Source of the DNA: Chloroflexota bacterium
Lineage (GTDB): Bacteria > Chloroflexota > UBA11872
Direction of reading: 5' to 3'
Length of the DNA: 64,000 nucleotides
Assembly: GCA_022824495.1 (NCBI GenBank)
Contig: JAJDZU010000023.1
Coordinates: 62,001-126,000 of the forward strand
Made by a program: the position numbers and the translations under genes. The notes below the pieces were generated by a model that made no database searches, had not been told where the DNA came from, and worked only from the letters and a program-made list of their open reading frames with translations. Shown here one piece after another: positions 56,651 to 61,884 of the stretch (its first letter is position 1; every line of letters starts with the position of its first letter).

Positions 56651-57400
56651 ATGCGCTTCGGCGACCTCACCTACCTCGAAATCCGCCGCCTGGCCAAATC
56701 CGGCTGCCTCGCCGTCCTTCCCACCGGCTGCACCGAACAGCAGGGCCCCCACCTCCCCGTCGACTTCGACACCTGGTTCGCCGAGCGCCTCTGCCTGGCG
56801 GCGTCCCGCAGGGCTTCGGGCAAATTCAACGTTGAGTCGCTGGTGCTGCCCGCCATCCCCTTCGGTCCCACGCCGGAGCATCGGAACTATGGAGCGGGCT
56901 ACGTCGATATCCCTGGCAAGCTCCACGGCGATTTGATCACCGCAACCTTGACCTCGCTCGCCGAGCAGGGCTTTGAACGCATCGTCGTCTGGCGCGGCTG
57001 CGGCGGCCACGACCTGCGCGGCGCCGTCCGCGACTTCAATCAGGCAGCCCCACACAAGGCCCAGGCCTTCTTGCCCGAACTCCCCTTCCACGACATCTGG
57101 TGCCGTTTTGGCGATCCGAACGTGCCGGGCGGTCACGCCGACAGCTTTTCAACCTCGATATCGCTCCATCTGCGTCCCGCATCGGTGCGCATGAACCAAA
57201 TTGCTGATCCCGCGCACCGGCCTGTTGACTGGCAGGACCCGAATCTGGACTTCGCGCGCTACTCGCCCACCGGCGTCATTGGAGACCCAACCCGCGCCAG
57301 CGCCCCGCTTGGCGCCAAGCTCTGGGAGGCCTCCGTCGCAAGCGTCGCCCAAACCCTGCGGACAATCTCACGGACCGCTGCACCCGCCGAAGGCTCCTAA
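56651..57400 (+). CDS. Creatininase/creatinine amidohydrolase family protein
   Basis: 249 residues. Metal motif LPTGCTEQQGPHLPVDFDTWFAE gives Glu, His and Asp ligands, and GCGGHDLRG the third His. The C-terminal segment that reads HAGEXETS in other members reads HADSFSTS here, so the Glu is lost and activity may differ. Convergent with the SelW-like gene. Confidence 0.82.
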   Translation: MRFGDLTYLEIRRLAKSGCLAVLPTGCTEQQGPHLPVDFDTWFAERLCLAASRRASGKFNVESLVLPAIPFGPTPEHRNYGAGYVDIPGKLHGDLITATLTSLAEQGFERIVVWRGCGGHDLRGAVRDFNQAAPHKAQAFLPELPFHDIWCRFGDPNVPGGHADSFSTSISLHLRPASVRMNQIADPAHRPVDWQDPNLDFARYSPTGVIGDPTRASAPLGAKLWEASVASVAQTLRTISRTAAPAEGS

Positions 57401-57491: not shown

Positions 57492-57743
57492 CTACCCCGC
57501 CAGCGCCGCGCTCACCAGCGGCAGAACCTCGCCGTCCTCGGCGTGGCGTCCCAGCGCCTTCTTCGAGAACACCAGGTCCCCGTCGACGACCACCTCGAAC
57601 ACGCCGCCGCCCGAAGGCATCAGCGACATCTCGCCAACGTCGGTTCCATGCTCTCCCAGGATTTCTTCCGTCGCACGGACGGCTTTAGGGAGATAGTTTC
57701 ATTGGCTGCAGTATTCGATCGAAACTCGGGCGCCGCGTCCCAT
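57492..57743 (-). CDS. SelW-like (Rdx family) selenoprotein, UGA at CxxU
   Basis: An 83-residue gene hidden from ordinary gene callers. From ATG 57743 the frame reads MGRGARVSIEYCSQ, then TGA (57699-57701), then NYLPKAVRATEEILGEHG and LMPSGGGVFEVVVDG, DLVFSKKALGRHAEDGEVLPLV, and TAG. These are the conserved Rdx/SelW blocks and the redox motif is C12-S-Q-U15. AAGGGAG lies before the start. Its SECIS-like hairpin follows directly. Thiol/selenol redox protein of thioredoxin-like fold. It may be cotranscribed with the membrane protein gene 83 bases upstream. Alternative: a TGC-to-TGA mutation (pseudogene). Confidence 0.8.
57652..57693 (-). promoter_or_regulatory. Bacterial SECIS-like hairpin after the UGA
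   Basis: On the minus strand, five bases after TGA, TCTCCC (57693-57688) pairs with GGGAGA (57657-57652). Inside, CCGTC (57682-57678) pairs with GACGG (57672-57668) around loop CGTGC. The loop is 21 bases after the UGA and its second base is G, which fits the general shape of bacterial SECIS elements that bind SelB. Confidence 0.6.
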
Positions 57744-57826
57744 GGTGTGCTCCCTTGCGTGGCGGAGTCGTTGCGTAGACCAGCCTATTGTCGCATGTAC
57801 GCCACCGCCAACAACAGGCGCGGGCC

Positions 57827-60346
57827 TCAGCCGCAATCTTCCCGCACGTCGATTGGTAGCTTGATCTCCCCGAACCACGAATCCTCGACCACCCCCAGCG
57901 TCAGCAAGTAGGCGCCGGGTCCGGACGGTGCCTCAATGCCGCCCTCGAAAGCCATCCCGGATCCCGTCCCGATTCCCTGCCCTTGATAGGTCTGCACCTG
58001 CAGAAGCCGACCTTCCAGGTCTTCAAGGCGTTGCAGGACGAATCGGTCGTCCGCCGTCGACCAGTGAAACCCGACCAGGTGATCCTGGCTCCACGCCACG
58101 GCGCCAACATTCAGCGCCTGCGCCTGGGCCAGCGTGGTCGTTCCCGCGATCAGGCAGGACGGCAGATTCAGCACCCGCAGATCCGCGGCCAGCGGAGCAA
58201 TCGTGTCCACGTGGGCCGCGCGTACATCGATCTCCGCCGATGCCTGCGGCGCACCGTCAATCACCAACTCCAGGCGATATTGACCCGGAACCGAGGGCGA
58301 GCGAGTACCGATCAGCTCCAGAGCGGGAGCCGTCGCCCCGGCGGCAATAACCGGCGGCAGCCGCAGCCGCACATCCTCTCGAACCGCCTCGCCACCCCCA
58401 AGCCGCTTCCAGGTCAGGGCGCCAGACGCGATCCCCCGGTGTGATGCCGGAATCCACGGACGGTCGGCCGCGTTTGCAAGCGTGACGGACACGCCGACCG
58501 ACGCCTCCGGTGCTACGGAAGGCGCCAGCGCCAACTGCATCTCGACATTGGACAACGAACTGATCGGCGGCGTACTCGGCGGACCCACGGAGGTGACAAC
58601 GAATCGCCGGGTCTCGTGCGTCGCCGCCGACGGCTGTGCGGCCCGGATAGCGGCCAGCCAGGCTTCCGTCTCGTCTTGGGATAGGTACTCCCGGTCCAGG
58701 ACGACCGTTCGGACACCGAGAGTACGCAGCGCCTCCAGCACCTCGCCCCGGTTGCTGTCGTCTGCCCAATGCGCCATGCGCGCCAACTGCGACGTTCCAC
58801 GCGGCTCGTATCCGGAATACCCATCCACAATCGGCTGGCGTCCCCCGTTAAGCGTCCACAGGGCGCGCTCGACATTCCGAACTTGGTGCTCGTGAATCTG
58901 TTCGACGTCCAAACCAAGTCGCTCGCCGGCAATTGGGATAAAGGCCACGGGCCCCTCCGGCGCCTCGGCCAGCGCCGCCTGCAGATTCCGGTCGTAAGGG
59001 ATCGGTGCTCCCGACGTCGGCACGCGAGCGAATTCCAAAACGAGGAATCCAAATGCAGCCAATCCCACGGCCCCGGCTGTCCAACCCCCCAACCGCGGCC
59101 ATCGCATCAGCCGGTCCAGAGCAATGGCGCCGAGCAAGGCCATTGCCAGCACCACCCCAACAGCCAGGAACTGTGGATTCCGCATCGCGGCGAAACCCGG
59201 AAGAAGCCCGTACGCGGCGGCATATGGCAGTTGTATGCCGGTCGCTTCGCCATTCCACCAGAGTTCCGGACCCAGCGTCAGGACGAACATCAGCAAACCG
59301 CTGAGCCCCATGCCAAGCGTCACCCAGCGCAAGCGCGGCGTCGCGGTACCTGCGGCCAGCCCCAGGCAGGCCAGCACCGCCGCCGTCAGTGCGGGAAAGC
59401 TGACGTCAAACCCCTGCACGCGCTCGGCAGCCGCCCGGAACCAGTAATGCGACCGCGCGGCCGTCGGCAGGTAGTCCGGCAGTCGCGCGCTCAGCTGCCG
59501 GGCCTCGTCAATCGTTCGAACCTCCTGGTTGTCCATCCAGAAGCCGAGATAGCCGGCCAGCAGCGGAACGAACGGCAGGGCGCCAACCGCCGTGCCCGCG
59601 ACCGCCTGCACCGCCAGCCGTCGGTCCACCGCCGGCAGGCGTCTGGCAGCGACGGCCGCGCCGATCAGCACAAGCAACGTGACCAGCGCGATAAACCCCA
59701 GATACACGCCGGTAGCGAATTGGATGAACACGCAAACCCACGCCCCGCTGAACGTCCACCAGGTCGGCCGCCGCAGAAACGCGAACCAGAAGGCAAGGGC
59801 CAGCGGCGTCCACCAGGCCATCAGCAAGTGGTGGTATTGGATGAACTCCTGCGAGATCGGCGCAAAACCAAACACGAACCCGGACAAGACGGCTGGCGCC
59901 CACCGGCCCAGCAGAACCCAGCCCGCCGCCGCCGCCGCCGCCGCATTCAGTACCGGACTGGCGATGGTGAGCACGTTGATGCCCACCCCGGGCCCGAACA
60001 GCGTCGCCACCGGCGCGTACACCGGCAGTCCGCCCAGCAGCAGGTGCGTGAAGAACACCGAATCTCCCATGCCGTAGTACATGAGGCCCTCAAAGAACCG
60101 CTGCGGCTCGCTGAACAGCGCCACCCGCGCCCACTCCATCGAATAAAGGAACAGCACGTTGTCCTTGTGTCCCAGGTGAAACTGGTCGCCCGGCAACGGC
60201 GGCAAAGTGGCCAGGGCCGCCGCGATATACAGCGCCCCGGCAGCGGCCACTTGTACGAGCCACCTGGTCCGCCGCTCGGCGAATAAGCTCAGCCCCGGCA
60301 CTCGCTGCGTCGTGACTTGGCTGTTGGGCTCTGTGATGCGGTCCAT
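57827..60346 (-). CDS. Large polytopic membrane protein, GT-C/EPS-type unknown
   Basis: 839 residues. The first ~490 have about 11-13 membrane helices (for example QVAAAGALYIAAALATL, FIALVTLLVLIGAAVA, AVGLAAFGFLVLEF), the rest is soluble, with a beta-sandwich-like end (QYRLELVIDG). The start of the helical part (DNVLFLYSMEWARVALF; FFTHLLLGGLPVYAPVA) resembles integral-membrane mannosyl-/GT-C-like transferases. No catalytic motif is certain. ATG 60346 chosen; ATG 60460 would only add an unconserved tail. Confidence 0.72.
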   Translation of the reverse strand: MDRITEPNSQVTTQRVPGLSLFAERRTRWLVQVAAAGALYIAAALATLPPLPGDQFHLGHKDNVLFLYSMEWARVALFSEPQRFFEGLMYYGMGDSVFFTHLLLGGLPVYAPVATLFGPGVGINVLTIASPVLNAAAAAAAGWVLLGRWAPAVLSGFVFGFAPISQEFIQYHHLLMAWWTPLALAFWFAFLRRPTWWTFSGAWVCVFIQFATGVYLGFIALVTLLVLIGAAVAARRLPAVDRRLAVQAVAGTAVGALPFVPLLAGYLGFWMDNQEVRTIDEARQLSARLPDYLPTAARSHYWFRAAAERVQGFDVSFPALTAAVLACLGLAAGTATPRLRWVTLGMGLSGLLMFVLTLGPELWWNGEATGIQLPYAAAYGLLPGFAAMRNPQFLAVGVVLAMALLGAIALDRLMRWPRLGGWTAGAVGLAAFGFLVLEFARVPTSGAPIPYDRNLQAALAEAPEGPVAFIPIAGERLGLDVEQIHEHQVRNVERALWTLNGGRQPIVDGYSGYEPRGTSQLARMAHWADDSNRGEVLEALRTLGVRTVVLDREYLSQDETEAWLAAIRAAQPSAATHETRRFVVTSVGPPSTPPISSLSNVEMQLALAPSVAPEASVGVSVTLANAADRPWIPASHRGIASGALTWKRLGGGEAVREDVRLRLPPVIAAGATAPALELIGTRSPSVPGQYRLELVIDGAPQASAEIDVRAAHVDTIAPLAADLRVLNLPSCLIAGTTTLAQAQALNVGAVAWSQDHLVGFHWSTADDRFVLQRLEDLEGRLLQVQTYQGQGIGTGSGMAFEGGIEAPSGPGAYLLTLGVVEDSWFGEIKLPIDVREDCG

Positions 60347-60459
60347 GCCGCGCAGGTTATCCGCCAATGCCCGGCGACTCCCGCTGTTGCCACCGGCAAG
60401 GCACTGGCGCACAGTGAGGTTCAGTCCGCTTGGTTTCGTACGAATGTGAGGTTGAAGCA

Positions 60460-61884
60460 ATGAGCACTGATGTCACCCACCTCGGCTCGCGCAAGCACCT
60501 CTTCATCGATCTCTCGCTCGCCGACCACACCTCCGGCGTCTCACTCGGCGTCAACCCGCCCCGCCTGGGCGGCATCGCCATTGGCCGCGACCGCGCCTGG
60601 GAACACCACATCCACTTCCAGAACACCGTCCTCGACGACAACGGCCTGGGCCGCTGCTGGTATCTCGCGTCCGTTATCCGCAGGGGACTCGAGTCCGCGC
60701 GCTTTGGCTACGCCGAATCCGAGGACGGACGCCACTGGCGCAAACCCAACCTCCGCCTGGTCGAGCTCAACGGCCGCCGCGACATGAACATCATCCCGCC
60801 CAAGCCCAAGCGCTCCAACGTCTTCATCGACCCGACGGCCCCTTCCTCCGAGCGCTACAAGACCTTCGGCCTCAGCCTCGAGGACGATCCCGGCGGCGTG
60901 GGCTACGGCGTCTTCGCCTCGCCCGACGGCTACGTCTTCCGCGAGCTCGGCTGCAACGGCATTCGTCGCGCCGGCGACACCCAGAACATGGCTTTCTGGG
61001 ATGACCGAATCAGACGCTACGTCGCCTACTTCCGCGGCTTCTCCCACCACCCCGATGGACGTCGACGCCGCGCCGTGGCGCGCTGGGAGACAGACGATCT
61101 CACCAGCCGCGAGGGCTGGGACCTGTCGAATGAGGAAAGCGACCGCCACATCATCGAGCAGTTGCCCATCGTCATTGCCTGCGACGACGACGATCCGCCC
61201 GACATGGATATCTACACCCCGTCCGTCGTCAAGTACCCCGGCGCCGACGACGTCTACCTGGCCACCATGTCCATGTACCACCACTTCACCCCCGACGAGA
61301 TGGACGATGTCGACCCGCCCCGCAACGACGGCCTCATGGACATTCAACTGGCTGTCAGTCGCGACGGTATCTCCTGGGACCGCCCCGACCGCCGGCCCTA
61401 CGTCGGCATTGATGCCGAAGGTCCCGGCCAGCGCATGTGCTACGCGGTCCAGGGTCTCCTGGTCCGCGGCGACACCGTGCTCCAGTACCACACCGCCTAC
61501 GACCAGTCCCACGGCCACAAGCGCCAGAACAACCCCGGCGGCGTCATTCGCTGGACCGAGCAGCGCCTTGATGGCTTCGTCAGCGCCAACTTCCCCTACA
61601 CCGGCGGCGAACTCGTCACCCGCCCGCTCACCCTCGATGGCTCAACCCTGGAACTCAACGTCGACGCCTCTGCCTCCGGCGAAGGTCGAGTCGAAATCCA
61701 GGACGCCGAAGGTCGGCCCCTGCCGGGACGCACCCTCGCCGACTGCGATCGTATCCTCGGCAACTACCTCCGCCACCCGGTCTCCTGGCACGGCGACACC
61801 AACCTCGGCATCCCACCCGGCACCCCCATCCGCCTCCGCTTCTCCCTCCGCAGCGCCCGCCTCTTCGCGTTGCAGGTCGCCTGA
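60460..61884 (+). CDS. Glycosidase-like five-bladed propeller protein
   Basis: 474 residues, the third member of the family at 44291 and 49631. Shared parts: RKHLFIDLSLADHTSGVS at the start, ARFGYAESEDGRHWRKPNLRLVE, SERYKTFGLSLEDD, LMDIQLAVSRDGISWDRPDRRP, and the C-terminal GTPIRLRFSLRSARLFALQV. Divergent from the membrane protein. It probably binds or hydrolyses carbohydrates, but no catalytic residues are certain. Confidence 0.75.
   Translation: MSTDVTHLGSRKHLFIDLSLADHTSGVSLGVNPPRLGGIAIGRDRAWEHHIHFQNTVLDDNGLGRCWYLASVIRRGLESARFGYAESEDGRHWRKPNLRLVELNGRRDMNIIPPKPKRSNVFIDPTAPSSERYKTFGLSLEDDPGGVGYGVFASPDGYVFRELGCNGIRRAGDTQNMAFWDDRIRRYVAYFRGFSHHPDGRRRRAVARWETDDLTSREGWDLSNEESDRHIIEQLPIVIACDDDDPPDMDIYTPSVVKYPGADDVYLATMSMYHHFTPDEMDDVDPPRNDGLMDIQLAVSRDGISWDRPDRRPYVGIDAEGPGQRMCYAVQGLLVRGDTVLQYHTAYDQSHGHKRQNNPGGVIRWTEQRLDGFVSANFPYTGGELVTRPLTLDGSTLELNVDASASGEGRVEIQDAEGRPLPGRTLADCDRILGNYLRHPVSWHGDTNLGIPPGTPIRLRFSLRSARLFALQVA

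Follow-up and report, generated by a model that had tools for sequence, protein, structure and literature searches.

SelW-like proteins have already been described as the selenoprotein family most common in marine bacteria. Few Cys homologues of the family occur among organisms that use selenocysteine (Sec), and only three selenoproteins were listed for Chloroflexi at the time of that publication (PMC1794560). The bacterial SECIS element is a hairpin located just 3' of the UGA codon, with a G in its small apical loop (PMC1088965). Among the papers searched, none ties selenoproteins to SAR202 or sponge-symbiont Chloroflexi.

The window, that is, the whole 64,000-nucleotide stretch of Chloroflexota DNA analysed here, contains a short minus-strand frame that is predicted to encode a further member of this family. 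The features of the locus are as follows.

57492–57743, minus strand: predicted gene of 83 codons and a TAG stop, encoding a SelW-like selenoprotein of the Rdx family.
57699–57701, minus strand: in-frame TGA, predicted to be read as selenocysteine, which closes the CSQU (CxxU) motif.
57668–57682, minus strand: SECIS-like hairpin CCGUC-CGUGC-GACGG, 5 bp with a 5-nt loop, identified by covariation and folding.
57750–57754, minus strand: ribosome binding site GGGAG, assigned from the sequence and present in relatives too.

The frame starts with ATG at 57743, ends with TAG at 57494–57492 and contains a single in-frame TGA, at 57701–57699; six bases separate the GGGAG from the ATG. Its translation is MGRGARVSIEYCSQ-U-NYLPKAVRATEEILGEHGTDVGEMSLMPSGGGVFEVVVDGDLVFSKKALGRHAEDGEVLPLVSAALAG, in which the CSQU redox motif occupies residues 12–15 near the N-terminus and U is residue 15. 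An earlier note, made from the letters of the window, had described this start codon, the TGA, a normal stop and a ribosome site, all of which are present. It had also placed the UGA at the last position of CxxU, where the family carries Cys or Sec, and Cys is indeed seen there in some homologues. Its statement that the gene is invisible to normal gene callers holds for a caller that takes each TGA as a stop and fails for curated protein and selenoprotein family models, which cover the family. The gene converges with a plus-strand gene at 56651–57400, creatininase-like by eye, and lies downstream of a large membrane protein gene (57827–60460) on its own minus strand. Because these flanking genes vary among same-genus loci, the selW gene does not belong to a fixed operon. 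Searches of the plasmid collection and with PADLOC gave no match.

When the TGA was read as an amino acid, the product matched the Pfam Rdx profile (PF10262) with 70.5 bits (cut-off 22.6; E 1.4e-19). Its NCBIfam matches (SelTWH_Campy and CXXU_selWTH) likewise exceed curated cut-offs, with 90.4 bits for NF041051 (cut-off 88) and 51.8 bits for TIGR02174 (cut-off 34.2). These profile scores place the predicted product in the Rdx family far above chance. The Pfam and NCBIfam matches span the TGA, in agreement with the conserved Rdx/SelW blocks that had been noticed on either side of it.

The minimum-energy fold of 55 bases contains an outer stem that starts five bases past the UGA, plus an inner hairpin. 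The outer stem was rejected as the SECIS element, being absent from relatives; the inner stem alone is conserved. A SECIS-like hairpin with G in its loop, as the earlier note had proposed, is thus retained, whereas its proposed start, five bases past that codon, is corrected. The inner hairpin begins after 16 nt past the UGA and pairs 57682–57678 with 57672–57668 around the loop 57677–57673. It was examined across 63 UGA homologues, a set thinned to less than 85% identity. These homologues form a mean of 4.19 of the 5 pairs, compared with 1.25 in the small set of four Cys homologues, and slid partners gave 1.1–3.0 pairs. Paired cells numbered 264, against a mean of 234.7 and a maximum of 250 in 2000 shuffles, which leave the relatedness of the homologues in place. 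The second base of the loop is G in all 63. Some UGA homologues form just 1–3 of the 5 pairs, and a minority of the GUGAGCC type has a different or weaker stem. The hairpin is short, and Rfam searches, which covered this region together with eleven loci that mostly carry UGA genes, returned no match to a SECIS family. As judged by this comparison of sequences, the hairpin accompanies the UGA, with compensatory changes among the UGA homologues and absence from the four Cys homologues checked.

The stem lies within the coding region. At their third positions, codons 21 and 25 show C-G, T-A, G-C and A-T pairs. Base 2 of codon 22 pairs with base 1 of codon 25, mostly as C-G, U-G or U-A; the corresponding residues 22/25 are mostly A/A, V/A or V/T, and A/T is found in none of the 63 homologues. 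This is as expected if the SECIS hairpin constrains the protein by the need of codons 22 and 25 to pair in the RNA. The covarying hairpin would then offer a clean case of a coding-region RNA signal that limits the amino-acid pairs a protein can carry.

An in-frame TGA could also represent a Cys gene with a nonsense change, either in a pseudogene or through sequencing or assembly error, and only a single base separates TGA from TGC or TGT. The gene was present in 60 of the 101 Chloroflexota genomes searched, with a TGA in 52 of the 60 and none in the other 8. Each of the 12 further same-genus genomes and six same-family genomes searched retains the TGA, as do nearly all homologues fetched from other phyla (Neomarinimicrobiota, Actinomycetota, Bacillota and others). 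Cys occupies the UGA position at two loci from other phyla (L116 and L117) and two from Chloroflexota (L148 and L153); the search that yielded loci L048–L127 included the CxxC region as a pattern, so that the share of UGA to Cys there is a biased estimate. Because the same TGA recurs in genomes that were assembled independently, within the genus, the family and beyond, it is not a sequencing error. Pseudogene-like decay in relatives, which the earlier note had set against its own reading, was looked for as well. Downstream of the TGA, the window gene differs from ten near-identical same-genus copies by 7–12 synonymous and 2–3 replacing codon changes, and these differences fall mostly on third codon positions. 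This pattern indicates purifying selection on the downstream region instead of decay. Since the TGA is conserved and change beyond it is mainly synonymous, error and decay are ruled out together, and we regard a nonsense change as scarcely credible.

The existence of an open frame leaves the identity of the inserted residue unspecified, and the UGA might be reassigned to Trp or some other selenium-free residue, or be read as one by ordinary suppression. The genome, however, carries the complete Sec machinery that the earlier note had proposed to look for: a tRNA-Sec (71 bits; named SeC by ARAGORN, anticodon tca), selA (516.6 bits), selB (342.1 bits, with SelB winged-helix and beta-barrel domains) and selD (371.2 bits). 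Across the Chloroflexota genomes, selA was matched in 51 of 52 with a UGA-containing selW compared with 35 of 49 others (counted by hand; Fisher p 1.4e-4, indicative only, as the genomes are related). The sole exception, G040, is an assembly that is 77% complete, and the 4 of 52 genomes lacking a strong selB match are each less than 90% complete. UGA is not globally reassigned, because 14 of the 39 coding-like open frames within the window end in TGA. The four aligned non-UGA homologues all have Cys and not Trp at the position, and the hairpin accompanies the UGA, so decoding without selenium appears highly improbable. Release factor competes with SelB at Sec UGA codons in general, which leaves room for a selenium-dependent switch, in which the main product would be a 14-residue peptide and the UGA would be passed only when selenium is plentiful. 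Purifying selection downstream implies that the full product matters, and such a switch would add to Sec decoding rather than replace it; we give it next to no credence as the main explanation.

Taken together, the family match, the conserved TGA and the Sec machinery support the overall reading of the earlier note, a SelW-like selenoprotein gene. The locus is almost certainly a functional selW-like gene with UGA 57701 decoded as selenocysteine, and Sec insertion at 57701–57699 is, on comparative grounds, very likely. In the proposed mechanism, the ribosome would initiate at ATG 57743, and the mRNA hairpin at 57682–57668 would recruit the SelB-GTP-Sec-tRNA(UCA) complex. Sec would be inserted at UGA 57701 and translation would continue to TAG 57492. 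The expected product is an 83-residue Rdx protein with the thioredoxin-like fold of its family and a CSQU redox motif. It is probably a thiol/selenol oxidoreductase, a role that, like Sec insertion itself, is assigned from the family.

The window gene appears to be one of several selenoprotein genes in its genome. The selD gene (L012:1501-2427, minus strand; C13:14559-15485 of the same genome) contains one in-frame TGA, at the GAGUACK active site, and selenophosphate synthetase (SelD) is predicted to be a selenoprotein itself. A search of the genome for AhpC-TSA proteins gave 14 matches, 7 of which contain a single TGA.

C4:106-477, C3:286168-286548, C16:283888-284268, C3:352049-352423, C7:239514-239891, C16:402879-403196 and C7:179781-180092 (L156–L162): seven AhpC-TSA (peroxiredoxin/thioredoxin-like) genes with one TGA each.

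In all seven the TGA lies at the active site (HTWULSC, HTWUPNC, GHWUSHC, AFWUGTC, AHWUPHC, FCUINC and TPGU), and single-sequence folding predicts hairpins after these UGAs. The genome is thus predicted to encode at least nine selenoproteins, namely SelW, SelD and seven peroxiredoxin/thioredoxin-like proteins. Searches of the same genome gave no match to the CMD/AhpD family and no TGA-bearing match to Thioredoxin (PF00085) or DsbA (PF01323). The UGSC family was likewise unmatched, but its controls were unmatched too, so absence of that family is not shown. A crude scan of the window for other read-through frames gave no further convincing candidate. We consider it probable, with some reserve, that the genome encodes at least nine selenoproteins, so that this uncultured lineage would rely on selenium for much of its peroxide and thiol chemistry, and that the SelW hairpin constrains residues 22 and 25. 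The genome, from a little-studied Chloroflexota group, is apparently selenoprotein-rich, and most such genes would be truncated or lost in ordinary annotation. The selW gene illustrates that a gene which standard callers would cut at the UGA can be retrieved, with comparison then serving to confirm it.

Among proteins of known structure, Atu0228 (PDB 2fa8) and SAV_2001 (PDB 3dex) are homologous to residues 5–65 (E 9e-15 and 1e-11, respectively), and both have Cys (CTQC) at the position where the window gene has UGA. The match to mammalian selenoprotein W (PDB 2npb) is weak and covers residues 7–68 (E 0.0086). Eukaryotic SECIS elements reside in the 3' UTR (PMC1088965), whereas the hairpin of the window gene lies within the coding region. 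The closest counterparts are the bacterial SelW-like selenoproteins (PMC1088965, PMC2398784, PMC1794560), which share with it the Rdx domain, the CxxU motif, a hairpin that follows the UGA and bears G in its apical loop, and the scarcity of Cys homologues in Sec users. This Chloroflexota lineage was not found in those three publications, and no essential difference from the proteins they describe was seen. The window gene adds a member to a known family and is ordinary in kind.
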